NCBI RefSeq assembly: GCF_007741495.1
Contig: NZ_CP036262.1
Coordinates: 3,844,001-3,908,000 of the forward strand
Reading direction: 5' to 3'
DNA from: Roseimaritima multifibrata
GTDB taxonomy: Bacteria > Planctomycetota > Planctomycetia > Pirellulales > Pirellulaceae
DNA: 64,000 nt
Part shown: in pieces, positions 24,360 through 64,000 of the stretch
Layout: each line of letters starts with the position of its first letter
Numbering within the stretch: position 1 is the stretch's first letter
The notes under the pieces: model-generated
Databases searched by the model: none
Told to the model about the DNA's origin: nothing
Seen by the model: only the letters and a program-made list of their open reading frames with translations
Translations under genes and position numbers: made by a program

Positions 24360-25622
24360 ATGACTCACCCTCCAACGCTATTTCGGATTACTTTGGCATG
24401 CGTGCTCGGTTCTTCTTTGCTAAACGGTTCGTCGTTGGCGGCCAGCGATGTGACTTGGCCCGGTTTCCTCGGCCCGCAACGCGACGGCTGGGTCGATCAT
24501 TTTGAGCCGCCTGCTGAGTGGCCGAAATCGCTAACCAAGGTGTGGCAGGTGGATGTTGGCACGGGATACGGGTCTCCGCTGGTGGCCGATGATCGCGTTT
24601 ATCAGCACGCTCGCCAGGGGAATGACGAAGTGTTGCAGTGTTTGGAACTGCCTACGGGAAAGCAGATTTGGAAGCAGACTCACGTGGTTCCTTTCAAAGC
24701 CTCGTCGGGTGGTGAGCGACATGGAGATGGCCCGAAGTCATCCCCCATCATCGCCGACGGCCGAATCTTCACCTTGAGCAGCCTTGGTGAAATTTCTGCA
24801 TGGGACGCGGAGTCGGGCGATCTGTTGTGGCGCCGTGACTACCGGAAACGCTTCCCGCAAAATCACCCTAACTGGGGCGCCTCCACTTCGCCAATTGTTG
24901 ACGGGGATCGCGTGATCGCTCACGTTGGCAATGACGACGAAGGAGCATTGATTGCTTTGGACGTGAAAACGGGCGACGAAATTTGGAGTCAGGGCAATGA
25001 TGGAGCTGCCTATTCGTCGCCGTTGGCTGTCGAAATTCATGGTGTCCGCCAGATCGTTGATTGGAACCATCGTGCCCTTGTGGGTGTGGACCGTGACTCG
25101 GGTGTGGCGTTGTGGGAGTTCCCCCTACCGCAATACACCAGCAACCAAAATATGCCGACGCCGACGTTGCACAACGGGCGGATTCTATTGGGCGGCGAGA
25201 ATCGAGGCATCTATGGTCTGGAACCAGAGATGAAAGACGGCAAGTGGTCGGTAAAGGAACGTTGGTTCCAAAAAGACGTCGCTTTGGACATGAGTACCGC
25301 CGTGATCAACGGAGACCTGTTGTTTGGGTTCTCGCACTACAAGAAGGGGCAACTGTTCTGCCTGGACACCGCGACCGGTGAAGTGCTGTGGCAGGGGCCG
25401 GGACGAACGGGAGCTAACGTGGCGTTCCTGTCGATTCCGGACCACGTTGTCGCCTTGCTGGACAATGGGCAACTGCAGGTGATCAAGGCCACCGACGGTG
25501 CTCTTGAAGAAGTCGCCAGTTACCAGGTCGCCGATAGCCCCACATGGGCACCGCCAGTACTGTTGAAGAACGGTCTCCTGATCAAGGATCAGACAAGTTT
25601 AGCGTTGTGGTCGTTCGAATAG
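24360..25622 (+). CDS. Secreted PQQ-like beta-propeller protein
   Basis: The product has 420 residues. The signal peptide ends about residue 28 (LLNGSSLAASD), then WPGFLGPQRDGW, a common opening of planctomycete propeller proteins. Repeated blades follow with A-x-D-x-x-x-G..W motifs: ALDVKTGDEIWSQG, CLDTATGEVLWQGPG, AWDAESGDLLWRRD. No PQQ-dehydrogenase catalytic residues are evident, so a scaffold or binding role (BamB-like fold) is as likely as enzyme activity. The neighbours are secreted carbohydrate genes. Confidence 0.8.
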   Translation: MTHPPTLFRITLACVLGSSLLNGSSLAASDVTWPGFLGPQRDGWVDHFEPPAEWPKSLTKVWQVDVGTGYGSPLVADDRVYQHARQGNDEVLQCLELPTGKQIWKQTHVVPFKASSGGERHGDGPKSSPIIADGRIFTLSSLGEISAWDAESGDLLWRRDYRKRFPQNHPNWGASTSPIVDGDRVIAHVGNDDEGALIALDVKTGDEIWSQGNDGAAYSSPLAVEIHGVRQIVDWNHRALVGVDRDSGVALWEFPLPQYTSNQNMPTPTLHNGRILLGGENRGIYGLEPEMKDGKWSVKERWFQKDVALDMSTAVINGDLLFGFSHYKKGQLFCLDTATGEVLWQGPGRTGANVAFLSIPDHVVALLDNGQLQVIKATDGALEEVASYQVADSPTWAPPVLLKNGLLIKDQTSLALWSFE

Positions 25623-51004: not shown

Positions 51005-52081
51005 TCATGGCGAGCTAAATTTGGCTTGCGTCGAGACGTTGAATTCTTCCAGGATTTCGTCGCACGTATGGTTTTCGAATTCGTAGTTCCAAGCTTCGAT
51101 GTAGCGCATGCCCAGTTCCTTTGCCTGCTTGAAGACGGTGGTGTAGTCGCCACCTCCAAACCGGTCTTGCTGACTGGAGCGACCGATAACTTGGCCATAG
51201 AGATCGCCTTGATAGTCTTTCAATAACGTGATCAAGTTGCCTTGGTAACTGGTTTTACCAGAAATCCACCACATCGCGATGCCGACACGATTGTCGTATT
51301 CAGGCTTTTGGAATTCGCTGATAATCCGGGCGGGGATTTGAGGGCTGCGGAACAGTTCGTGAACTTCAAAGGCGACGGCTTTGTCGGGAAAAGCTTTCAG
51401 CACACTCTGAGTGGCCTCGGCGGATGCTTTGATCCAAACATCGCCAAACCTGCGTTCAGCGTTTTTGTCACGCGAGTTGATTCCGGCAGCTTGGAGAAGG
51501 GTTTGATCCGGGACGCCGTTGAAATGCCCTTCGAGTCCGTTGCTGGTCATCTGAGGAACGTAAACCAATTTCAAACGTGGGTCTTTTCCGTATTTTGCGC
51601 CGACAGCCAACAGCATTTCTCGAAGACGTTTCTGTACGATCGGGTCCCAATACTTCGGCATTTGGACGGGGTTTCCACGGAAGGCCATTGCAAATGTTTC
51701 GGCGTGGAGATCCGAGACCAACCAGCCCGGCGAGAGGGATTGAGATCCTCGACGCCTGCGCGACAAACGCGAGGGGGTTTTACTGTCAGCAGAAGCTTCG
51801 GTAGACGTCCAACCGCCGTGAATGGCAAGCGTCCAGTTCATTGTGGGTTTGAGAAGTCGAACCTGGTCTTCGATCCGGGTAAAGTCAAACCGGCCGGGCG
51901 CGGGTTCAATTTCGCTCCAGGTGACTCGGACGAGCCCACCGTTCATGTGCTTGTTTTGGACGGCACGTGGGGTGATCGTACTGGCATAGGTGCCGATTGG
52001 TTTATCAACGTCCTTGCCAAAGCCATCGGAGGCAAGGAAGATGGCAATAAGCAGCAGCGAGAGCAGGTTTGGAGTTTTCAT
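51005..52081 (-). CDS. Secreted TIM-barrel-like hypothetical protein
   Basis: The product has 358 residues from the ATG at 52081. Signal peptide MKTPNLLSLLLIAIFLASDGFG. The body looks like a glycoside-hydrolase-type barrel: GGLVRVTWSEIEPAPGRFDFTRIE, NWTLAIHGGW, YWDPIVQKRLREMLLAVGAKYG, RLKLVYVPQMTSNGLEGH, AVAFEVHELFRSP, YIEAWNYEFEN. The Glu in VTWSEIEPAPG and the late EAWNYEFE are typical of clan A/GH42-like barrels, but the catalytic pair cannot be fixed. Planctomycete proteins of this type are mostly unstudied. Confidence 0.6.
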   Translation of the reverse strand: MKTPNLLSLLLIAIFLASDGFGKDVDKPIGTYASTITPRAVQNKHMNGGLVRVTWSEIEPAPGRFDFTRIEDQVRLLKPTMNWTLAIHGGWTSTEASADSKTPSRLSRRRRGSQSLSPGWLVSDLHAETFAMAFRGNPVQMPKYWDPIVQKRLREMLLAVGAKYGKDPRLKLVYVPQMTSNGLEGHFNGVPDQTLLQAAGINSRDKNAERRFGDVWIKASAEATQSVLKAFPDKAVAFEVHELFRSPQIPARIISEFQKPEYDNRVGIAMWWISGKTSYQGNLITLLKDYQGDLYGQVIGRSSQQDRFGGGDYTTVFKQAKELGMRYIEAWNYEFENHTCDEILEEFNVSTQAKFSSP

Positions 52082-52192
52082 GATGATTGAACACACTAAG
52101 GGAGTGAAAAGTTCCGCGACTGGAAACAGTTTTTGGAGTCTTACCCCGTTTTCTTGATCCTTCCGCGTTGAAAGTGGAGGAGACGACGCATC

Positions 52193-52279
52193 AAAACCTG
52201 GCGTAGTGGACGCGGCAAAACCTGGTGTAGTGGACGCGGCAACGAGCCCCGTTTTGCAGGACTTGTTGCCGCGTCCACT
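52193..52279. repeat. Direct and inverted repeat cluster
   Basis: A 24-bp unit ending GTAGTGGACGCGGC is present twice in tandem (52193-52240, one difference). AGTGGACGCGGCAAC (52229) is inverted at 52265-52279 with a 21-base gap. It lies between divergent genes. Confidence 0.7.
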
Positions 52280-52339
52280 TCGCCAAACAAGGCGATGCCA
52301 CCAGCAATGTAAATCCTTCTGGAGACGCGGTCAGCCATC

Positions 52340-52954
52340 ATGGGGTTTTATTCAAAAGTCGTTTTTCCTGCCTTCTACGATTTTGTAATCGACAAGCCGT
52401 ACTGGGACGAACACCGAAAACGACAACTGGCCGATGTGAGCGGCGAGATTCTAGAGATCGGTGTTGGCACGGGGCTAAATCTTCCGCACTACCCTAAGCA
52501 CGTTCGAAAGATAACCACGGTCGATCCGAATCCGGGCATGAACCGTAAACTTGCCAAACGAATGGCTTCGACTGAAATCGAAGTCGACCGACGAATTTTG
52601 TCCAGCGAAGAACTTCCCTTCGATGACGCGACGTTTGACTATGTGGTCAGCACCATCACGCTTTGCAGTATCGCCAACGTCGATCAAGCTTTAGGCGAGC
52701 TTTGCAGAGTGCTCAAGCCGGGGGGTCGGTTACAATTTTTCGAGCACGGGATCAGCCCCGATCCCGCTGTGCAGAAACAGCAAGTGCGATGGAACTGGCT
52801 TCAGGGAATCATCGGCGATGGTTGTCGGCTGGACCTGGATCTTGCGGCATTGCTGGCGAAGCAAGCCTTCCGTGCCGTAGAAATCGACAATTTCTACATG
52901 CAGCAAACTCCACGAACACACGGATACATGTACCGCGGCATCGCCACAAAGTGA
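52340..52954 (+). CDS. Class I SAM-dependent methyltransferase
   Basis: The product has 204 residues. SAM-binding motif I EILEIGVGTGLNLPHYP, motif II acidic TTVDPNPGM, then ELPFDDATFDYVVSTITLCSI and LGELCRVLKPGGRLQFFEHG, as in the UbiE/METTL7-like group. The N-terminus FPAFYDFVIDKPYW and the C-terminal QQVRWNWLQGIIGDGCRLDLD also fit small methyltransferases of lipid or quinone-like acceptors. Substrate unknown. Confidence 0.88.
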   Translation: MGFYSKVVFPAFYDFVIDKPYWDEHRKRQLADVSGEILEIGVGTGLNLPHYPKHVRKITTVDPNPGMNRKLAKRMASTEIEVDRRILSSEELPFDDATFDYVVSTITLCSIANVDQALGELCRVLKPGGRLQFFEHGISPDPAVQKQQVRWNWLQGIIGDGCRLDLDLAALLAKQAFRAVEIDNFYMQQTPRTHGYMYRGIATK

Positions 52955-53173
52955 AATTCACTCGTAACTTCGGAAGCGTCGATTGAAAACCTTTGAAACA
53001 CTGGGAATCTGAGTAAACTAGTTCCAGTTTATCACGCGGGGTGGTGGTAACCTGACACCCTTCGTGCAACGCGTGCGTTCGATGATTCTTTGCTGAGATG
53101 TTTTCAACTCCAACACGACCCGTTCCGATATGCGCAGGCGTTCATTTCATGGGTTCCTTAGTTGCAGTCATGG

Positions 53174-56100
53174 ATGCCCAACCAAATGAATTCAAGCTGC
53201 GACGACGAACCTAACGAAGGTCAACCTGGTGTCGCCGATTTCGAACCGGCATGCTTTCAGTCCTGCCTCGGTTTGCCCGATGGCGACGATCAGCAACTTA
53301 AAGATACCGCGGTTGCAGTTCGCCAAGAGTATCGAGACGGGTCACGGTGGAAACGCTTGAACTGTCAACGGGTGAGCATTTTTGCGGAACGCGATCGGGG
53401 AACCGTCTTCGTTGTCCATGTTGGCTCGTCTGTTGAATTCGACTGGACCTGGGAAGGCGCGAAAGCGTTTCGCCCGAAGTCGCTTGACGACAACGAGCGT
53501 TATTCGGATCGTTTCTACGAAGAAGCCGACTACGAAGACGAGATCCTTTGGTCGGGTGAGATCGTCGAAGTGGATGAGCGGAACGGTTGCCTGTTCATCA
53601 GTCTTGATGATCCAGAGAGGACTCCAAAAGCTGGACCGTTCTTTGTTCGTCCGTTTGAATTTCTGTCGGTTTTGGATTCCATTTACAACGGCGACGAGTT
53701 TGCCGAACTCCGGAAGCACCTTCCGGCTAGGCTGAACGCCGCTGAGGGCGATATCCATCCGCAAGTCTCCGCGTCCAGTGACTGCGGCCTATCAAATTTG
53801 CACGATTGGTGGCAACATTCCTGGAGCGTGCTCTGGGGGCCGCCCGGCACGGGAAAAACTTGGACGACCGGACAACAGATCGCCAAGGTCCTGCAAGACG
53901 AAAGCGAGAGGATCCTGGTAATTTCGACGACGAACCGGGCGACCGACGCCGTCGCAGTCGCCATCGGCGAAGCGGCCAAGATTCACTGCCCAAATGAAAT
54001 GGATGCCGACACGCTGCTGCGAATCGGCAAGGGGGCGTCCTATCAAACGTTCGTTGCGAAAGAACTTGACCCGATGCTCCGAGGGACGGAGTCGGAAACC
54101 CTGGCTCAGATCGATCGCCTTGTACAGCAGCTCCAAGCCTTTGAATCGTCTGAAGACAAAGCCCTAGCAAGAAAACAGATAGGCAAATTGCGAACGTCGG
54201 CCAACGATCAAAGCAATCGCATCTTTGTCGATGCGGATCGACGTGTCGTGGTTGCAACCGCTTTCAAAGCAATGAGCTATCTAAAAGACGAATCGATCCG
54301 AAAGATGGTTGAAGATGGTGAAGCCCCGTTCACGACGATCTTTATCGACGAAGCAGGATTGATCTCCAGAGCCGCGGTCGCAGCCTTATCGTTGTTGGCG
54401 GGGCGGAGAATTGTATTGGTCGGCGATTCGAAACAGCTGGCGCCCATCAGTCGTATTTCACGCATCCTTCCGACTCGTCAGCAAATTTGGCTGGCAAGCA
54501 GCGGCTTGAGCCACCTGGACCATACGGACAACATTCCCCAAGCGGTTCACTTGCTGTCGGCACAACACCGAATGCACCCGGACGTTTGCAAAGTCGTGTC
54601 GAATTTTCAGTACGATGGAGTCCTGTCGACCGCACCAGATCGAGCCGAAATGAAGTCGACGCTTTCGCCGTTCATCGCCGATCAATCGAGAGCCATTTGG
54701 TACGTGCTTGATGAAGAAGATGCCGATCTGGCGTCGATTCGCGCGGCACGCGGGCCAGCCAAAAAAAGCTGGGTTCGTGGGATGACGGCGGCGACGCTCC
54801 GAAAACTGTTCTCCGATGCTGGAGTGCGTGGTTCACACGGACTTTTTATTTCGCCATTCAAAGCCCAGGCTCAGCAAATCGGAAAATTGTTGGCTGGTTG
54901 GGGAATGAAAACATGGGAAGCGTCGACGGTCCACAGCCAGCAAGGATCGGAGGCGGACATCGTCATTTTTGACACGGTCAATGCGGGTAGCGGCACGTGG
55001 CAAATACCCGAATGGAAAAGGCTGGTCAACGTCGCACTCAGCCGAGCAAGGGAAGCGGTCATTGTCCTGGCAAGCCGCAGCGAGATGGAAGAACCCTACC
55101 TCCGTCCGCTTAAGCAGACCATGACGGCTGCGTTCCTGGTAAATGATGGGAAGCGCTTCGTATGGCGGGACGCTGGTAAAACGCCTTCATCGCAGGCCGT
55201 CGCTGTGGCCGAGCCAAACGCTGGTTACAAATCAAAAACCTCAGGCCGTATGGGCGATCAGTTTGATGGACGCAAGGGTCTAAAGCCAATTCTGTCGCAG
55301 GAACAGCAACGGCTGACCAATCTGGATCTAGACGGAAAGCCCCGCCTGGTTCGAGGCGTCGCGGGCAGCGGCAAATCGATTGTTCTCTGCAACTGGCTGG
55401 CCAAGACGGCGATGCGTCTGCAAGATCAAAAAGACGCCCGCATCTGGGCCGTCTATGCGAATCGAAGTTTGCAAAAGCTGCTTCAAGAATCGATTGAATC
55501 AGCATGGACCAACCTCCACGAAGGCGATTTGTTCGATAACTCCGAATTCCCTTGGGAGAAGGTGTCGCTTCTCCACGTCAAAGATGTTTTGGCAGGAATG
55601 CTTCCAAGCGTTCAAATGTCCATCGAATCGATTGGTTTTGATTATGACCAAGCAGCCGAGGAATTTCTCAATCGGAAAGGCTCTGATGAATTACTTCCAC
55701 GATGCTCGGCCCTGTTCATCGATGAAGCTCAAGACATGGGACCGTCAACATTGCGACTGCTATTGTCCATCGTCGAACAAACGGACAAAGAAGATGCCAA
55801 CAGTCGATCGGCACATATTTTTTACGACAATGCTCAAAACGTCTACGATACCAAGACCCCGAAATGGTCCGATTTTGGCCTCGATATGCGTGGACGATCG
55901 ACGATCATGCGAGAAAGCTTTCGATCGACAACGCCGATCACCGAATTGGCAGTCAACGTGCTCAGCCGACTGTCAGAGAGAAGTAAACGTCAAGATCAGC
56001 AAGAATTGCTCCAACTCGGGCTGCTAGAAAAAGCCGACCGAAGCGGCGAGGCCTGGTTGCGAGTTCGGTACAACCAGATCGCTGGCCCCAAACCGATCTA

Positions 56101-56593
56101 TCACAGCTTTGATAATCGAAGCCAGGAAATGGCTTCGATTGCTGTTCATTTGAAACACTTGATCGTGAAAGATGGGATATCGCCAACCGATATTTGCATC
56201 ATCTATAACGGCCGGGTGCAAAGTTTCCTCGAATCCAAACTGTCGCCGGCACTTGCGAAGATTGGCGTCGAGCTTTCATTCCAGAAGAATCGTTCGTTCG
56301 AACGACAGCCCAACACGCTGGTTGCCACCACTCCGCATTCTTTTAAGGGCTACGAATCGGAAGTGGTCGTGATTCCCTGCGTAGACAACTATGTCGCTCC
56401 CGGAGGTAAGATTTTGGAGAACAGCCTGTACGTGGCGATGACACGAGCTCGATCGCTGCTTGCGATTTACGGAATGAACCGGGGATCGGAGGCGAGTCAA
56501 AAAGTCGGCGAAACGATTCGTACATGCATTTCAACACAGAATCGTCGCCCACTGATTGAATCGGTCCCCGATGAAAGTGGGCAAGGGCAATAA
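53174..56593 (+). CDS. Double superfamily-1 helicase: Upf1-like module fused to UvrD-like module
   Basis: The product has about 1139 residues (numbering here from the TTG at 53162). An accessory, acidic beta-rich N-domain occupies 1-200. Helicase module 1 (about 215-650) is SF1B Upf1/DNA2-like: GPPGTGKT (226-233), FIDEAG (394-399), GDSKQLAPI (421-429), LSAQHRMHPD (465-474), STVHSQQGSEADI (588-600), NVALSRAR (623-630). Module 2 (about 705-1105) is SF1A UvrD/Rep-like: GVAGSGKS (732-739), FIDEAQD (852-858), RESFRST (917-923), TPHSFKGYESEVV (1057-1069), VAMTRAR (1091-1097). Both ATPase cores look complete; no nuclease domain is seen. It is alone, followed directly by an Rhs fragment. Confidence 0.88.
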   Translation: MPNQMNSSCDDEPNEGQPGVADFEPACFQSCLGLPDGDDQQLKDTAVAVRQEYRDGSRWKRLNCQRVSIFAERDRGTVFVVHVGSSVEFDWTWEGAKAFRPKSLDDNERYSDRFYEEADYEDEILWSGEIVEVDERNGCLFISLDDPERTPKAGPFFVRPFEFLSVLDSIYNGDEFAELRKHLPARLNAAEGDIHPQVSASSDCGLSNLHDWWQHSWSVLWGPPGTGKTWTTGQQIAKVLQDESERILVISTTNRATDAVAVAIGEAAKIHCPNEMDADTLLRIGKGASYQTFVAKELDPMLRGTESETLAQIDRLVQQLQAFESSEDKALARKQIGKLRTSANDQSNRIFVDADRRVVVATAFKAMSYLKDESIRKMVEDGEAPFTTIFIDEAGLISRAAVAALSLLAGRRIVLVGDSKQLAPISRISRILPTRQQIWLASSGLSHLDHTDNIPQAVHLLSAQHRMHPDVCKVVSNFQYDGVLSTAPDRAEMKSTLSPFIADQSRAIWYVLDEEDADLASIRAARGPAKKSWVRGMTAATLRKLFSDAGVRGSHGLFISPFKAQAQQIGKLLAGWGMKTWEASTVHSQQGSEADIVIFDTVNAGSGTWQIPEWKRLVNVALSRAREAVIVLASRSEMEEPYLRPLKQTMTAAFLVNDGKRFVWRDAGKTPSSQAVAVAEPNAGYKSKTSGRMGDQFDGRKGLKPILSQEQQRLTNLDLDGKPRLVRGVAGSGKSIVLCNWLAKTAMRLQDQKDARIWAVYANRSLQKLLQESIESAWTNLHEGDLFDNSEFPWEKVSLLHVKDVLAGMLPSVQMSIESIGFDYDQAAEEFLNRKGSDELLPRCSALFIDEAQDMGPSTLRLLLSIVEQTDKEDANSRSAHIFYDNAQNVYDTKTPKWSDFGLDMRGRSTIMRESFRSTTPITELAVNVLSRLSERSKRQDQQELLQLGLLEKADRSGEAWLRVRYNQIAGPKPIYHSFDNRSQEMASIAVHLKHLIVKDGISPTDICIIYNGRVQSFLESKLSPALAKIGVELSFQKNRSFERQPNTLVATTPHSFKGYESEVVVIPCVDNYVAPGGKILENSLYVAMTRARSLLAIYGMNRGSEASQKVGETIRTCISTQNRRPLIESVPDESGQGQ

Positions 56594-56712: not shown

Positions 56713-57334
56713 AATACGGTCATGGCGGGGTATGCTCCTCGATCGCCCTGGCTAGAACTTCCATCGCCTGTTTTTGGCGATGCTGTTGAGATCTCTGCCC
56801 GTCGGCGACGAAGGCTCGCAGGTGATCGGGAGCTAAGAATGGTACCTTCTCAGGCGGGCTCTCCGTCTTACCGCCCAGCCACGCGATCACTCCGATCAGA
56901 TAGGGCAAGATCCGCAGCGTCAGGCGGCCATCCATCTGCTCCAGCGGTTGCATCGACTTCGTACACACGCGGCAACGGGCCGGATAACTTCACCGTCGCT
57001 TGTTCGCCTCTCCGGTGAACATCGCGCGGCGTTCGTTTTCGATGAGCGTCGCCTTTCGCTCGGGTCGGCGGCATTTAGTTGACGGTCTGGCAGCGAAAAC
57101 AGGCCCCATGCCAGCTTGTCTGGCATGATGCCGAGATTTCAAATTAGTTAGCATGCCCCTAAAAATACGCCACACCGGATCGGATTGCCGCCGAAGGCGG
57201 CAATCCGATCCGGTGGCGACATACGGGGAGCAACCAGTTCTAAGTTCAAATCTTGCGTTCCTGTCGGGCGAGCCGACGAGGGGACGTGCTGATCGGACGT
57301 CTTCGCAGACGCTAGCTACATCGACGAACCGGTC
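56713..57334. repeat. Rhs array spacer, copy 1 (5'-truncated)
   Basis: Homologous to 58711-59332 and 61738-62358; the first ~320 bp of the full spacer are missing. Holds an antisense frame (56720-56968) conserved in the other copies and the palindrome at 57174-57214. Confidence 0.85.
57174..57214. repeat. Perfect palindrome of Rhs spacer 1
   Basis: 19-bp arms with loop GAA. The outer continuation CGCCA..TGGCG pairs as well if an extra CA is bulged. It lies 120 bp before the Rhs tip start. Confidence 0.9.
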
Positions 57335-58005
57335 ATGAGAGCGGGAACACTAGCAACCGAGCGTCTGTACTACCATCGCAACCAACAATACAGCGTCACC
57401 GCACTCACGGACACAACCGGTACGATCTCCGAACGCTACGCCTATGATGCCTACGGAAAGCTGACCGTGTTGGCTGGTGGCGGGACGGTGCCGGTTCGGC
57501 GTATGGGAACCGTTACACCTATACCGGACGCGAGTGGGACGAGGAACTTGGTCTCTATCACTACCGGGCGAGGATGTACGATCCGGTGGCGGGGCGGTTT
57601 TGTTCGCGTGATCCGATTGGGTTTAAGGGAAGCCCTTGGAACCTATTCGAGTACGTTAGTTCGTCGCCCCTTGCTAACATGGATCCAAGTGGGGAATCGC
57701 GCATTATCGCGGTAGGCTGTGGGGGTTGCATGGCAGCTTTGGGTCCAGGCGCCGTTGTATGCCTTTTCGCAAATGAAGCGTTTAATGACAGCATCGGAGA
57801 GTGTTATAAGTCTTATTGGAATGATCTCCCCTGGATACATCGTCAAGCGACAAAACTGGCCTGCATTGGGTGTGTGCTTCGTGTGGCTGGACCGGTCGTA
57901 TACCGCTGGGTCATCAGAAATGCGGGCGCTTGCGGACCTAACGCATGGGAACAGATCGCCGTTCGTAGCGAACGCGTAATTCGTTTTTCGGTCTTGCTAC
58001 AATGA
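57335..58005 (+). pseudogene. Orphan Rhs tip 1, frameshifted
   Basis: The conserved core starts MRAGTLATERLYYHRNQQYS and SERYAYDAYGK. A 4-base deletion near 57490 (compare tip 3) shifts the frame, and the core resumes in a second frame with LGLYHYRARMYDPVAGRF-type codons to DPIGFKGSPW. The variable end (about 57665-58005) has Cys pairs and hydrophobic stretches (AVGCGGCMAALGPGAVVCLF, CIGCVLRVAGPVVYRW). It is unlike the ends of tips 2 and 3, and no toxin family is recognised. No ribosome site precedes the ATG. Confidence 0.75.
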
Positions 58006-58403
58006 GCGACGAGGCTTTTATGAGTTACCGCAATGACAATTGGTTGGCTTTGGTTTTAGCCAGCGTATTCATGCCGCTTGTATTGGTCACGTCCGTGTGG
58101 CCGCACGAGCTACTCCTTAGTTGCTTGAATTTCTTCGGAATTTTTGCCACATGTTTCTTTGCCGTTCTTTCCCTCGGAAGCTCGTTGCTAACGCGTTCTC
58201 GGTGGCGTCAGGTTCAGCTTTTTCTTTTGCCATTTGTAGTAATACCTGCATTTTTGTTCTATAAGTTGATCAGCGATATTTTTCTACTAGAAGCAGTTTT
58301 TCTTTACACGGGCATTTTTTGGATATCCATTCTTTCTGTTGCCACCATAAGGGAAAGTAGAGCTCATCCAAAGGAAAGGCGGTCCCTCGACAAAAAAGAA
58401 TGA
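58002..58403 (+). CDS. Membrane protein, candidate immunity partner of Rhs tip 1
   Basis: The product has 133 residues. The ATG overlaps the tip's stop (ATGA). Four hydrophobic segments (LALVLASVFMPLVLVTSVW, LLSCLNFFGIFATCFFAVL, VQLFLLPFVVIPAFLFY, FLYTGIFWISILSVATI). The last codons (DKKE, stop) lie in the start of the next spacer repeat. Position directly after an Rhs tip is that of an immunity gene; a membrane location suggests a toxin acting at the membrane. Confidence 0.65.
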   Translation: MSDEAFMSYRNDNWLALVLASVFMPLVLVTSVWPHELLLSCLNFFGIFATCFFAVLSLGSSLLTRSRWRQVQLFLLPFVVIPAFLFYKLISDIFLLEAVFLYTGIFWISILSVATIRESRAHPKERRSLDKKE

Positions 58404-59332
58404 CTGAGTCGGGAAATGACGACGAGTAGGTCTCCTCTGTGTCATTCTTTTTCTTTAGCTGCTGACTGCCGGGGTTAGCTGCGGTTTGGACCGCAGTGGC
58501 GTGTAAGAGGTAGCGAGCGGTTTTGATCCGCTCGCTTGTCACGCAGTTCCGACTGGCAGCCTGATTCGCCGCCCCAAGAGATAAGTTTTACCGGCTTTGA
58601 AGGTTGGTACTTCGTTGATTGCGGCAGATAACACCGGAGCGGCGATACAGGAAGAGGGCCACGTGGATAGCAGCTTTCCGAAAGTCGATTCATGGAGCGG
58701 AGCAATCGTTGCACGATCATGGCGGGGGATGCTCCTCGATCGCCCCGGCTAGAACTTCTGTCGCCTGCTCTTGGCGATGCTGTTGAGCTTTTTGTCCGTC
58801 AGCGACGAAGGCTCACAGGTGATCTGGAGCTAATAATGGCACTTTTTCAGGCGGGCTCTCCGTCTTACCGCCCAGCCATGCGATCACTCCGATCAGATAC
58901 GGTAAGATCCGTAGCGTCAGGCGGCCATCCATCTGCTCCAGCGGTTGCATCGACTTCGTACACACGCGGCAACGGGCCGGATAACTTCGCCGATGTTTGT
59001 TAGTGTCTCCCGTGACCATCGCCCGTCGATCGTCTTCGATGAGCGCCGCCTTTCGCTCGGGACGGCGGCATTTAGTTGACGGTCTGGCAGCGAGAACAGG
59101 CCCCATGCCAGCTTGCCTGGCACGATGCCGAGATTTCAAATTAGTTCGCATGCCCTCAAAAATACGCAACCGGATCGGATTTGCCGCCTTTGGCGGCAAA
59201 TCCGATCCGGTTGCAACATACGGGGAGCAACCAGTTCTCATTTCAAATCTTGCGTTCCTGTCGGGCGAGCCGACGAGGGGACGTGCTGATCGGACGGCTT
59301 GCGCAGACGCTAGCTACATCGACGAACCGGTC
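58390..59332. repeat. Rhs array spacer, copy 2 (full)
   Basis: Begins ACAAAAAAGAATGACTGAG. Contains hairpins GCGAGCGG..CCGCTCGC and CTGCGGT..ACCGCAG near 58486-58540, then the 23-bp palindrome at 59166, and ends in the Rhs core. Copies at 61431 and 63490 start the same way. Confidence 0.88.
59166..59214. repeat. Perfect palindrome of Rhs spacer 2
   Basis: 23-bp perfect arms (starting GCAACCGGATCGG) with loop TTT. It differs from copy 3 by paired changes in both arms (GCAACC/GGTTGC here, GCCACC/GGTGGC there; one extra T-A pair). Confidence 0.92.
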
Positions 59333-60418
59333 ATGAGAGCGGGAACGCTAGCAACCGAGCGTCTGTACTACCATCGCAACCAACAGTACAGCGTCACAGC
59401 ACTGACGGATACGACCGGTGCGATCAGTGAACGTTACGCCTACGATGCCTATGGTGAACTCACGGTGCTGGCTGGCGGTGGGACGGTGCTTTCGGGTTCA
59501 GCGTATGATAACCGGTATACCTTTACGGGCCGTGAGTGGGACGAAGAGCTTGGGCTTTATCACTACCGGGCGCGGATGTACGATCCGGTGGCGGGAGGAT
59601 TCGTGTCCCGCGACCCGATTGGGTATATTGACGGTGCCGGGCTTTACACTCCCTATTTTTTGCCGGAGGGACTCGATCCTTATGATTACTTCCAAATCGC
59701 TGTTGAGAATCCCTACTTGCCACAGCCATATCTTCCAGATTTCATTGATCCTTATGGAGACCTCGAAGCCGGACTGAGCAAGTGCTCCGCGTATGCTACG
59801 CAGTACCCTTGCAGCAGCACAAGGTTTAGCGAAGGTAATTGCGACGACAGGTTGATTGACGGCGTAATACCAGCAAAGGGATGCAAATGCAGCAACTCGA
59901 AAGATGGTGCAGTTATCCAGCAAAGTGAATGTCAGAGCCAATTGGAGGCGGCAAAGGGCAATGTCAACTTGGGCGTGGCGAACGTTGTCTTGGGCAATGT
60001 TTACTGCAGCCAGAGATGCGGAGGTTCTAATTACGGATTGACGTGCTGGCGTCCAATTCAGCGAGGGCCATCGGCAGGGAAGTTGGAAATTGGTGTTTGT
60101 ATTCCTATAGCCAATCAGAGCGGTTGCAATGCGGAGGCGCTTACCGCAGACGAACTTACGCATGTCACCTACCTAGTGATGTCGGTCACCACGAACCCAG
60201 GTACAGCTAACGGAGACATGATGGGGTTGTTTGACCGTGATAAATTCGAAGACAAAGCATATCGCGCCCAGTGTGACATTGAGCCTAGCAACCGCTGCTT
60301 GAAGGATGGTGAGAGAGTTGCTTATGTTGAGGGGTGCGTCCTTCGAAGAAAGCCGCAAAGCACACTCGGCGCAAACGTGACGTCGATCCGTAACGCATGC
60401 GATCGTTTTCAATGGTAG
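59333..60418 (+). CDS. Orphan Rhs tip 2 with Cys-rich C-terminus
   Basis: The product has 361 residues from the ATG at 59333; the frame is open upstream to 58997 through the spacer. The Rhs core end is complete: YHRNQQYSVTALTDTTGA, RYAYDAYGEL, FTGREWDEELGLYHYRARMY, DPVAGGFVSRDPIGYIDG. The variable part (about 110-361) has ~20 Cys (CKCSNSKDG, CSQRCGGSNYGLTC), suggesting an extracytoplasmic disulphide-rich domain. No catalytic motif recognised. The stop overlaps the start of the next gene. Confidence 0.75.
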   Translation: MRAGTLATERLYYHRNQQYSVTALTDTTGAISERYAYDAYGELTVLAGGGTVLSGSAYDNRYTFTGREWDEELGLYHYRARMYDPVAGGFVSRDPIGYIDGAGLYTPYFLPEGLDPYDYFQIAVENPYLPQPYLPDFIDPYGDLEAGLSKCSAYATQYPCSSTRFSEGNCDDRLIDGVIPAKGCKCSNSKDGAVIQQSECQSQLEAAKGNVNLGVANVVLGNVYCSQRCGGSNYGLTCWRPIQRGPSAGKLEIGVCIPIANQSGCNAEALTADELTHVTYLVMSVTTNPGTANGDMMGLFDRDKFEDKAYRAQCDIEPSNRCLKDGERVAYVEGCVLRRKPQSTLGANVTSIRNACDRFQW

Positions 60419-61401
60419 CCATAAAGAAACTGAACTACAGATTTCTTGTCCTTCTCGTGAGAGTGACTATCGTAGGGGCTGCGTTATACTTAGCCTGCTT
60501 TGCTTCATACGTTGTCAAGTCAAGCGGAGGTTCTGCGGGTGGTTTGCAGATGACGAGCCGCACCGTAAGTTATGGTTTTCCTGCCGAGTATGAAATTGCT
60601 ATAGTCACTGCCCCTGGCGCAAGTTGGTCAACAGTCCACTTCTCTGCTGCTGCCGTGTTCTTTGACGTAACCTGGGCTGGTCTATTTGCCCTTGCCCTTT
60701 TTCCACGTCGCGGAAAACCAAACTGGTTTTGGCGACATGTCGTTCTTTTCTGCAGTCTTTCCATCTTGTGCTGCGAAATTGCTTGGGGCATCAAGGCTAG
60801 CACTAAGGCAATTGGGCATGGGGTTGCGTTGGAGGAACGTGGCGCTTCTGTGTACTTTGAAAAGGGAGGCAGTCGTTTCCTTTCTTTGACGAACCTTTCG
60901 AGCTTCATTTCTCCGGATTACGACGCACAGCTTGCTGACATCACTTTCTCGGATACGCTAATTTTGCCATTCAGTAAGCCTGGATTCGAAAAGCCCCGCC
61001 CCACATCGACTGTGATCTTTCGTGGCAGGAAGCTCTCGACAGAAACCATTGAACTTGCGTTGGAACAAATAGACTCGAGTAAGTTTTCTGTACTAATAAT
61101 AAGTACAGAGGAGCTTTCAGGGCTTCCGGATGTTAGTAGATGCCAGAATCTGAAGCGTATTTATTTCAACGGCACACAGTTTAAAGATGTTTCAACGGAT
61201 GCGAGAAACCTTGGCTCCCGGGTTGAATACCTCGATCTCGCCTATTCGAATATTTCGCTATCGTCGGTCTTGAAGTTTCTTGAGGCACCAGCGTTACGAG
61301 AGATTGATATAACGGGCTGCGGACTCGACGTTTCCAGGGTTTTGAGAAGCGCTCCAGACCATGTCGTAGTAAAGCACGCGGATCCGCTACCGTCGATATA
61401 A
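60412..61401 (+). CDS. Membrane protein with leucine-rich-like C-terminus, candidate immunity partner of tip 2
   Basis: The product has 329 residues; the ATG at 60412 overlaps the tip's TAG by 7 bases. Two to three membrane segments in the first 130 residues (FLVLLVRVTIVGAALYLACFASYVV, FDVTWAGLFALALF, VVLFCSLSILCCEIAWGI), then a soluble domain with LRR-like strands (CQNLKRIYFNGTQFKDVS, VEYLDLAYSNISL, LREIDITGCGL). Its place after an Rhs tip argues for immunity; the repeats may bind the Cys-rich toxin. Confidence 0.6.
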   Translation: MVAIKKLNYRFLVLLVRVTIVGAALYLACFASYVVKSSGGSAGGLQMTSRTVSYGFPAEYEIAIVTAPGASWSTVHFSAAAVFFDVTWAGLFALALFPRRGKPNWFWRHVVLFCSLSILCCEIAWGIKASTKAIGHGVALEERGASVYFEKGGSRFLSLTNLSSFISPDYDAQLADITFSDTLILPFSKPGFEKPRPTSTVIFRGRKLSTETIELALEQIDSSKFSVLIISTEELSGLPDVSRCQNLKRIYFNGTQFKDVSTDARNLGSRVEYLDLAYSNISLSSVLKFLEAPALREIDITGCGLDVSRVLRSAPDHVVVKHADPLPSI

Positions 61402-61430
61402 AGGAAAGGCTGTGCCGAGTCAGTGCGTCC

Positions 61431-62358
61431 ACAAAAAAGGAATGACTGAGCCGGGGGATGACGACGAGTAGATCCTCTGTGTGCCATTCTTATTTCTTTA
61501 GCTGCGGTTTAAACCGCAGTGGCGTGTAAGAGGTAGCGAGCGGTTTTGATCCGCTCGCTTGTCACGCTGTGCTGGTGGACTGCCTGTTTTGCCGCCCCAA
61601 GAGATAAGTTTGACCGGCTTTGAAGGTTGATGCTTCAATGTTTGCGGCGAATTGCACCGGAGCGGCGATACAGGAAGAGGGCCGCGTGGATAGCAGCTTT
61701 TTGGGAGTCGATCCATGGAGTGGATCAATGGTTGCTCGATCATGGCGGGGTGGGATGCTCTTTGGTCGATCCGGTTAGAACTTCTATCGCCTGGACTTGA
61801 CGATGCTTTCGGGCTTTTTGCCCGTCGGCGACGAAGGCTCGCAGGTGATCGGGAGCTAAGAAGGGCACCTTCTCAGGCGGGCTCTCCGTCTTACCGCCCA
61901 GCCACGCGATCACTCCGATCAGATACGGCAAGATCCGTAGTGTCAGGCGGCCATCCATCTGCTCCGGCGGTTGCATCGGCTTCGTACACATGCGGCAGCG
62001 GGCCGAATAACTTCACCGTCGCTTGTTCGCCTCTCCGGTGAACATCGCGCGGCGTTCGTTTTCGCTGAGTGTTGCCTTTCGATCGGGACGTGCGATATAT
62101 CAGTTAACGGCCTGGAAGCGACAATAGGCCCCATGCCAGCTTGCCTGGCACGATGCCGAGATTTCAAATTAGTTCGCATGCCCCCTAAAAATACGCCACC
62201 GGATCGGATTGCCGCCGAAGGCGGCAATCCGATCCGGTGGCGACATACGGGGAGCAACCACCTCTAATTTCAAATCTCGCGTTCCTGTCGGGCGAGCCGA
62301 CAAGGGGACGTGCTGATCGGACGGCTTCGCAGACGCTAGCTACATCGACGAACCGGTC
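61431..62358. repeat. Rhs array spacer, copy 3 (full)
   Basis: Begins ACAAAAAAGGAATGACTGAG. Same order of hairpins as copy 2, with palindrome at 62194 and the Rhs core at its end. The antisense 81-codon frame (61498-61743) is kept, as at 58475-58720 and 63575-63820. Confidence 0.88.
62194..62242. repeat. Perfect palindrome of Rhs spacer 3
   Basis: 23-bp perfect arms (starting CGCCACCGGATCGG) with loop GAA. Confidence 0.92.
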
Positions 62359-63216
62359 ATGAGAGCGGGAACGCTAGCAACCGAGCGTCTGTACTACCAT
62401 CGCAACCAACAGTACAGCGTCACAGCACTGACCGACACGACAGGAACGATCTCTGAACGCTATGCGTACGACGCGTACGGCAAACCGACCGTGCTGACTG
62501 GCAGCGGGACGGTATTGTCCGGTTCGGCGTATGGGAACCGTTACACCTATACGGGACGGGAGTGGGACGGGGACCTTGGGCTGTATCACTATCGGGCGCG
62601 GATGTATGATCCTGTGGCGGGGTGGTTCGTGTCTCGTGATCCAGTCGGTTACACTGATAGTGCGTCTCTGTATTGCGCATCAATGTTATTGATGCTGGTT
62701 GACCCTGCTGGCAATGCGGGAATCTGGGAGCCTCGGGATCCGCGACATGGAGGCCCTCATCCTAGAGTGTTGTTGCCTCGTGATCCGCCTCCACCGCCGG
62801 AGCCACTGACGCTTGATCAGTCCGCAGCCTATGCCGCATGCGCTGACACTTCTTATTCACGTTGTGGCGGGTGCACTCAGGAGTCGTGTGAAGCAGCGGT
62901 AGCCGCATTCATTCAAGCGGTGGATGATAGCTGGCTAATTGGTGTCCCATTTATTGGGCCGGTTGGGCCTCACACTTGTGAACGACTAGCAAACGATATA
63001 ATAAGGCGAATCCCTGAGTTAGAGAACAATCCTTGCGTCGCCTACGCAAGTGTTACTATCGTGAGGGACTCCCGATCCACACATCCAACGAGGCCGCCGA
63101 CTCATGCCTGGGCAACTCTGAAGTTATGCAATGGCGCTACCATCAATGGAGACAATCACGCCAACGGTGGTGAAGATCAGATTTGGGTTGGATCTCCATC
63201 GAACAATTCAGACTGA
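62359..63216 (+). CDS. Orphan Rhs tip 3
   Basis: The product has 285 residues. Core end as in tip 2 (YHRNQQYSVTALTDTTGT, YTGREWDGDLGLYHYRARMY, FVSRDPVGYTDS), then a variable part from about residue 105: a Pro-rich linker (DPRHGGPHPRVLLPRDPPPPPEP written here in part) and a domain with CADTSYSRCGGCTQESCEAA, LIGVPFIGPVGPHTCERLA and THAWATLKLCNGATINGDNH. The His/Asp-rich end could be catalytic, but no family is recognised. No ribosome site before the ATG. Confidence 0.75.
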   Translation: MRAGTLATERLYYHRNQQYSVTALTDTTGTISERYAYDAYGKPTVLTGSGTVLSGSAYGNRYTYTGREWDGDLGLYHYRARMYDPVAGWFVSRDPVGYTDSASLYCASMLLMLVDPAGNAGIWEPRDPRHGGPHPRVLLPRDPPPPPEPLTLDQSAAYAACADTSYSRCGGCTQESCEAAVAAFIQAVDDSWLIGVPFIGPVGPHTCERLANDIIRRIPELENNPCVAYASVTIVRDSRSTHPTRPPTHAWATLKLCNGATINGDNHANGGEDQIWVGSPSNNSD

Positions 63217-63227
63217 AAGGGTTGGCC

Positions 63228-63503
63228 TTGGATGCGTATAAACCCCCTGTGGAACCTTGTTCTACGTATACCGAAAGAAAGAAAAGCGTAATTGCGGGCA
63301 AACTTCGGTGGCCGTTCATTGCGGTATGCGTCGTTGGACTTGGACTCGTATTTCAGCATAGCCTGTCGGATTTTTTTCGATGCGTTGGGGACCCTGAAGG
63401 AAAAGGGATTGCATTTGGGGCTGGCGGACTTTTGGGGCTGATTATCGCGATGTTGTTTATTGGAATTGTTCATTGGCGCTGCGAAGTTCACAAAAAAGAA
63501 TGA
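63228..63503 (+). CDS. Small membrane protein, candidate immunity partner of tip 3
   Basis: The product has about 91 residues from TTG at 63228 (TTG at 63222 equally possible; GAAAGGG upstream). Two hydrophobic segments (WPFIAVCVVGLGLVFQ, GIAFGAGGLLGLIIAMLFIGIVHW). It ends HKKE, stop, at the start of spacer copy 4, as in the gene after tip 1. Confidence 0.55.
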   Translation: MDAYKPPVEPCSTYTERKKSVIAGKLRWPFIAVCVVGLGLVFQHSLSDFFRCVGDPEGKGIAFGAGGLLGLIIAMLFIGIVHWRCEVHKKE

Positions 63504-64000
63504 CTGAGTCGGGAGATGGCGACGAATAGACCCCCTCTGTGTCATTCATTTTCTTTAGCTGGTGACTGCCGGGGTTAGCTGCGGTTTAGACCGCAGTGGC
63601 GTGTAAGAGGTAGCGAGCGGTTTTGATTCGCTCGCTTGTCACGCTGTGCTGGTGGACTGCCTGATTCGCCGCCCCAAGAGATGGATTTGAACGGCTTTGA
63701 AGGTTGATGCTTCATTGTTTGCGGCGAATTGCACCGGAGCAGCGACACGGCAAGAGGGCCACGTGGATAGCAGCTTTCCGAAAGTCGATTCATGGAGCGG
63801 ATCAATGGTTGCTCAATCATGGCGGGGAATGCTCCTCGATCGATGCGGTTTGGACTTCGATCGCCTGCTCTTGACGATGCTTTTGGGCTTTTTGCCCGTC
63901 GGCCACGAAGGCTCGCAGGTGATCGGGCGCTAAGAAGGGCACCTTCTCAGGCGGGCTCTCCGTCTTACCGCCCAGCCACGCGGTCACTCCGATCAGATAG
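63490..64000. repeat. Rhs array spacer, copy 4 (cut by window end)
   Basis: Begins ACAAAAAAGAATGACTGAG and follows copy 2 and 3 to the window edge, so at least one more tip is expected beyond. Confidence 0.85.

Follow-up and report, generated by a model that had tools for sequence, protein, structure and literature searches.

A single-chain fusion of Upf1-like and UvrD-like helicase cores in Roseimaritima multifibrata and its likely association with bacterial defence

Domain architecture of the two-helicase protein

The window analyzed here is a stretch of 64,000 nucleotides from the planctomycete Roseimaritima multifibrata (contig NZ_CP036262.1, positions 3,844,001 to 3,908,000), the forward strand of which carries, at 53162-56593, a gene encoding two superfamily 1 (SF1) helicase cores in one polypeptide. 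As delimited in a preliminary description made from the sequence alone, this gene is one uninterrupted frame that runs for 1143 codons from TTG 53162. Translation probably starts at ATG 53186 (M9), where the aligned relatives begin, giving a protein of 1135 residues; the residue numbers used here are counted from TTG 53162. The Upf1-like, SF1B-type core (residues 216-655, 53807-55126) contains the motifs GPPGTGKT (226-233), DEAG (396-399) and SRAR (627-630), and the UvrD-like, SF1A-type core (residues 701-1110, 55262-56491) contains GVAGSGKS (732-739), DEAQD (854-858) and TRAR (1094-1097). With a Walker A, a Walker B and an arginine-containing motif VI in each, both cores belong to SF1.

Profile searches assigned the two halves to different helicase families. 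The first half matches the Pfam families AAA_12 (5.5e-28) and AAA_11 (7.9e-15), and the Upf1-type models together cover residues 218-639; in PADLOC, the top model for the protein is MkoA (7.9e-44 over residues 222-638). Searched alone in Pfam, the C-terminal half matches UvrD_C (2.6e-9) and SLFN-g3_helicase (8.2e-7). In the PADLOC search of the protein, this half is matched by the NERD+UvrD model C3a187 (5e-24 over residues 712-1102) and by GajB (5.2e-12); a sequence search of the PDB with this half alone returned nothing at E≤0.01. No NCBIfam model scored above its cut-off, the IGHMBP2 family TIGR00376 reaching 72.7 bits against a cut-off of 348.9. The full motif sets, these matches and an alignment of 36 proteins bear out the one polypeptide with two SF1 cores of the preliminary description, and its statement that the protein lacks a nuclease agrees with a Pfam scan, which found no nuclease family. 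Most of the UvrD_C match lies in positions 276-345 of the 350-position profile, and PF00580 (UvrD-helicase) does not reach its cut-off; the second helicase is compact, with the UvrD 2B subdomain apparently missing. It is accordingly classed as a compact relative and not as a canonical UvrD, which has N- and C-terminal domains including 2B.

The AlphaFold2 (AF2) model of the window protein has a mean predicted local distance difference test (pLDDT) score of 81.5 and a predicted template modelling (pTM) score of 0.56. The top Foldseek match is the human Upf1 core (PDB 2gjk, 3.5e-25), followed by Setx, Sen1, Ighmbp2 and Dna2 (PDB 5eax, 2.5e-21). In the model, a short low-confidence tail (model residues 1-17) leads into a helix, a beta barrel and further helices that precede the Walker A motif (residues 27-215, 53240-53806), and this region has no Pfam family at E≤1. 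The order of these elements is that of the Upf1 stalk/1B. Since, moreover, the Foldseek alignment to the 614-residue Upf1 core chain spans 681 columns, what had been described as an acidic N-domain is present as a region, but is most likely a Upf1-type stalk/1B, which belongs to the helicase and does not constitute a new domain. The AAA_11/AAA_12 matches, the element order in the model and the Foldseek match to the Upf1 core place the first half among the SF1B Upf1-like helicases, the stalk/1B part of this assignment being an inference.

These fold similarities bear on what the substrate might be. The closest solved folds (Upf1, Setx, Sen1 and Ighmbp2) and the best PADLOC match, MkoA of Mokosh, would suit an RNA or RNA-DNA hybrid helicase of the Upf1/Senataxin type that detects R-loops or the transcripts of phages and uses the UvrD-like half as an accessory motor; the Mokosh helicase is described as an RNA helicase. 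We regard this explanation as improbable, as the DNA helicase Dna2 also has a Upf1-like core and the partners encoded in the vicinity of several relatives have DNA as their substrate (Mrr, PglX, and type I and III methyltransferases).

The two cores are connected by a variable linker (residues 656-700, 55127-55261), of which residues ~673-694 fall below a pLDDT of 50, and the protein ends with a short variable tail (residues 1111-1143, 56492-56590). By contrast, 16 of the aligned relatives, including the copy at L030 discussed below, have about 100 further C-terminal residues that the window protein lacks. The modelled extension (pLDDT 84.9, pTM 0.72) has the order helix-strands-helix-strand, and Foldseek ranks PD-(D/E)XK-type nucleases first (Bax1, R2 endonuclease, BspD6I and Hjc); these matches are weak (best 4.0e-3, none at 0.001), with unrelated folds such as gelsolin from rank 15 onward, and the L030 extension has no Pfam match. 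Because the catalytic residues expected of PD-(D/E)XK enzymes are not conserved, the extension looks like a degenerate PD-(D/E)XK-like nuclease fold. A recurrent EP...AEPLFWF...ACFG pattern was also seen in it. At the other end of the L030 protein, an additional opening stretch (L030:3709-3900, forward strand) reads like a DnaJ (J) domain.

Distribution, integrity and history of the fusion

A scan with one genome per species revealed 45 loci encoding relatives, and the match covers both cores in 38 of them, the partial ones being L035, L038, L039, L044, L045, L046 and L047. The relatives come mainly from Pirellulales and other Planctomycetes; the others lie in metagenome-assembled genomes (MAGs) labelled Riflebacteria, Caldilineaceae, Anaerolinea, Nitrospirae, Myxococcales and a proteobacterium, labels that can be wrong. 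Within the order Pirellulales, 15 of 296 genomes gave a match; one of these (G208) was left out as a different Upf1-like protein (31%, residues 222-651 only), which leaves the fusion in 14 genomes, with some copies degraded. At a threshold of 1e-80, 8 of 392 genomes of the phylum match. For the Anaerolinea relative, a search of its own phylum matched just the genome that encodes it (1 of 251). A complete genome of the same genus (G270) is without the fusion. No second one was found in the source genome, its sole other match being 25% identical and confined to residues 222-650. Two copies (L076 and L077) are present in the single-contig genome G538, about 81 kb apart and in differing surroundings.

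Both cores are read in one stop-free frame at 48 of the 62 distinct loci, a count that leaves out L061 (no match), L066 (a piece of the L050 locus) and sequence duplicates. Three of the others are cut at or near contig ends (L035, L039 and L044), and 11 are degraded, either interrupted or internally deleted (L015, L017, L026, L040, L041, L046, L058, L059 and L060) or truncated away from a contig end (L038 and L045); some of these may be MAG assembly errors. At L027 and L055 the sole stop seen precedes the gene start. A frame error or assembly artefact joining two normal genes, which the preliminary description had named as a possible undoing of its reading, is ruled out by the 48 loci. Nor is the fusion a common, described housekeeping protein, to judge by its sparse occurrence in the order (14 of 296 genomes) and by the lack of a description in the literature searched.

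This distribution also bears on the possibility that the fusion is a lineage-specific DNA-repair or replication-restart helicase with a RecD2/Rep/DNA2-like role, found in islands only since islands gather accessory genes. Dna2 among the Foldseek matches fits such a role, but the sparse occurrence in the order and the phylum, the absence from the complete same-genus genome and the degradation at 11 of 62 loci all argue against it.

Phage records gave no match to the fusion, and none of the 38 matching plasmid records holds it over at least 80% of its length. Two scans of viral contigs gave, among the matches listed, only short ones with identities not exceeding 31%, almost all of which fall on the UvrD half. 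A phage or plasmid origin thus finds no support in these scans.

Thirty-five proteins from other loci align with the window protein at 36-81% identity, and the Walker A, Walker B and motif VI of both cores are invariant or nearly so in the 36 aligned proteins. When the window gene is compared with L003, the ratio of non-synonymous to synonymous substitution rates (dN/dS) comes to 0.052 in the Upf1 core and 0.051 in the UvrD core, and to 0.30 in the linker. The Upf1 core yields 0.068, 0.085 and 0.086 in the comparisons with L004, L005 and L006, respectively; the UvrD core has 0.054 against L004 and 0.056 against L006, with dS saturated against L005. For the linker, the ratio is about 0.3 against both L003 and L006, and saturated against L004 and L005. 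Both cores are under strong purifying selection (0.05-0.09 where calculable).

The two halves also appear to share most of their history. Trees of the N- and C-terminal halves have 20 of 33 splits in common, compared to 0.145 on average and at most 2 with shuffled labels, and the distances in the two halves correlate at 0.93. As the trees largely agree, the simplest reading is one fusion event followed by mostly joint inheritance.

Gene neighbourhoods and the association with defence

The genes that flank the relatives, which the preliminary description had proposed to inspect, include known defence genes at several loci, as identified with profile hidden Markov models. At L030 the fusion lies inside a BREX operon, separated by 30 bp from brxC (E 0) upstream and by 28 bp from pglX (E 0) downstream; PD-Lambda-2_B (2.3e-133) and brxL (2.3e-303) follow further downstream. 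At L086 the fusion follows lmuA-lmuC-lmuB of Lamassu, and at L080 it adjoins sngABC of Shango, all three genes being matched by model in both cases. At L036, HmaC (1.7e-127) precedes the fusion by 23 bp, and an LmuB-like gene is found upstream. The fusion at L027 is flanked by an Mrr_cat endonuclease (PDC-S02, 4.4e-141) and a 3'-5' exonuclease, DruE and DpdE being close by. The surroundings of L079 include a CBASS cyclase and a phospholipase; L076 adjoins a TIR gene and a DrmD-like helicase, and L088 adjoins a DrmD-like helicase. At L078 a NOV_C/PDC-S36 gene lies 37 bp downstream, and GajB-like and type III methyltransferase genes are also in the neighbourhood. L077 has a GmrSD_N neighbour, and the SIR2-like reading of a neighbour there was confirmed by neither PADLOC nor Pfam. 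Weaker matches (about 1e-12) point to an OLD/AriA/GajA-like ATPase ahead of the fusion at L007 and L084.

Same-strand genes lie within 100 bp of the fusion at 13 of the 34 loci examined, a few of them probably being spurious gene calls. At five loci (L007, L009, L038, L084, which is the same as L049, and L088, which is the same as L056), an alpha/beta-hydrolase-like gene overlaps the fusion stop by 4 bases, which suggests translational coupling.

In a comparison with control regions, the products of two genes from either flank of the fusion were searched with PADLOC at 1e-20. The test set comprised 52 proteins at 13 of 20 regions, one of which (L090) is a degraded copy; L081 and L082 (GC-rich), L089, L091, L092, L093 and L095 were dropped. 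The control comprised 50 proteins from 13 of 16 regions elsewhere in the same genomes. The test proteins match 84 PADLOC families, and at least 10 of the 52, from 6 of the 13 loci (L076, L078, L079, L080, L086 and L088), have a match at this threshold. The control proteins match four families, namely three RtcR/PspF-type regulator models and mad3, through 2 to 5 of the 50 proteins. The weight of the comparison lies in the specific multi-gene defence systems around the fusion, against regulator-type models in the control.

On this evidence from its relatives, the fusion is likely associated with defence. Together with the conserved cores under purifying selection, their largely congruent histories and the sparse, patchy occurrence with its decayed copies, this makes it reasonably probable, in our view, that the single-chain dual-motor SF1 helicase represents a family not described before, which takes part in the defence of bacteria against foreign DNA. 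The preliminary description had suggested a defence or repair role from the Rhs-like array beside the gene. Its defence part gains support from the BREX, Lamassu, Shango, CBASS, HmaC, Mrr and OLD-like neighbours of the relatives, but the array does not serve as evidence for it: one weak methyltransferase match is all that PADLOC gave among ten neighbours of the window copy, and Rhs genes beside the relatives were not systematically looked for.

Several observations weigh against a defence role or against two coupled motors. By raw protein counts the enrichment is modest, and 7 of the 13 test loci are without an assignable strong match. Many neighbours are transcribed separately and may not function together with the fusion. 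Among the copies listed, many in Pirellulales are solo beside ordinary genes (unannotated neighbours read by eye), and no convincing defence neighbour of the window copy was found by PADLOC among ten neighbouring proteins. These two observations would suit the repair or replication-restart role introduced above; we nevertheless hold that role to be rather unlikely, given one copy inside a BREX operon and others adjoining Lamassu and Shango genes. In addition, two pairs of well-supported splits conflict between the trees of the halves, and the relative arrangement of the two cores in the AF2 model is unreliable (pTM 0.56). Finally, GajB, a UvrD-like defence protein, was without helicase activity in assays (PMC10681800), and the compact C-terminal half may for this reason serve as an ATPase or a scaffold and not as a helicase.

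Genes of ArdC-type anti-restriction proteins lie close to the fusion on the reverse strand at L078:4305-5318 and L084:5301-6245, hinting at mobile elements.

A helicase for mobile-element maintenance, serving plasmid or integrative and conjugative element replication or transfer and not defence, would account for these ArdC-like genes as well as for a resolvase near L089 and a ParA-like gene (by reading) near L085. Such a function is highly improbable in view of the phage records, the 38 plasmid records and the short, divergent viral-contig matches described above.

The window copy itself looks like a stand-alone gene. The sole PADLOC match among its ten neighbours is the methyltransferase at 52340-52954 (mad2, 4e-8, over its methyltransferase part); no MkoB-like, GajA or BREX match was found among them, and neither the three Rhs-like array ORFs nor the gene at 60397-61401 has a PADLOC match. 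Downstream, 56716-63999 is a tandem cassette array, Rhs-like by reading, in which blocks of 89-300 nt occur in 3-4 copies at 70-93% identity (one copy at 60%), spaced about 2.0-3.0 kb, with differing tails; its ORFs at 58997-60418 and 62359-63216 have no Pfam match. Upstream, a short sequence at 52209-52299 has at least five other genomic copies and matches itself on the opposite strand, being partly palindromic. In G270, the homologue of the gene at 51005-52096 adjoins a homologue of the window gene at 24360-25622, and the 19.9 kb compared showed no other similarity to the window, which indicates that the region is rearranged between the two genomes.

Relation to known systems and a possible mechanism

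The fusion resembles several known systems in parts, yet differs from each. With MkoA/MkoC of Mokosh it shares the Upf1-like SF1 core, MkoA being its best single PADLOC model. The hallmark of Mokosh is a kinase domain together with MkoB, or a fused PLD nuclease; the fusion has neither kinase nor PLD in the Pfam scan and no MkoB-like match in the ten neighbours, and possesses a second, UvrD-like core beyond residue 638, so that it is not assigned to Mokosh. RecBCD likewise combines SF1A and SF1B motors, and the fusion has two intact motif sets; however, in RecBCD the motors sit in separate subunits, the SF1B core is of RecD type rather than Upf1 type, and an active nuclease is present, whereas the window fusion has no nuclease family by Pfam. 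The IGHMBP2/Upf1/Dna2 family has the fold of the N-terminal half (2gjk), but lacks a second helicase, and the fusion stays far below the TIGR00376 cut-off.

The UvrD-like C-terminal half recalls NERD-UvrD (C3a187) and GajB of Gabija, and at L007 and L084 an OLD/GajA-like ATPase precedes the fusion. The position of NERD in C3a187 is taken in the fusion by a whole Upf1-like helicase. An adjacent GajA (OLD ATPase-TOPRIM), as Gabija would have, was not matched among the window neighbours scanned, and the GajA/OLD-like neighbours at L007 and L084 are weak. The window copy likewise falls outside BREX, which has brxC, pglX, pglZ and others in one operon, as no BREX match was found in its ten neighbours; around L030, models identified brxC, pglX and brxL. 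The closest published fusion idea found is ArmD of ARMADA type II, which is a UvrD/GajB-like helicase with an N-terminal fused domain in a multi-helicase defence operon (PMC12458937); the domain joined to it is a RelE-like RNase and not a second helicase. The review PMC10952713 covers the sharing of domains among defence systems. The Upf1-UvrD fusion is conserved and apparently undescribed: no such fusion was found in the model libraries (Pfam, PADLOC and NCBIfam), and no description was found in the literature searched, where coverage of subscription journals is thin.

SF1B cores translocate 5'-3' and SF1A cores 3'-5'. By analogy, a dual-motor mechanism is our hypothesis, in which the Upf1-like core would run 5'-3' and the UvrD-like core 3'-5'. 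If the two cores sat on opposite strands of a DNA end or fork, they would both move in one direction along the duplex, like RecB and RecD, because of these presumed opposite polarities. At loci that also encode a nuclease or ATPase (Mrr, NOV_C/PD-T4-1-like, OLD-like, BREX or Lamassu), the fusion would be a sensor or processing motor that opens or recognizes invader DNA intermediates for the effector, and stand-alone copies such as that of the window would act alone or with an unlinked partner. A precedent for a helicase as sensor is HamB, which activates the HamA nuclease on damaged DNA (PMC12278908). More tentatively, and with considerable doubt, the protein might be a one-chain analogue of the two motors of RecBCD (Upf1-type 5'-3' and UvrD-type 3'-5'), a modular immune helicase that is antiphage alone or combines with effectors of the BREX, Lamassu, OLD and Mrr types, with the PD-(D/E)XK-like tail as a relic of an ancestral helicase-nuclease.

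Helicases are sensors or motors in several bacterial immune systems. A natural, conserved single-chain pair would allow the coupling of two motors of presumed opposite polarity to be addressed directly, and the fusion could be a modular component common to BREX, Lamassu-like and stand-alone defence.

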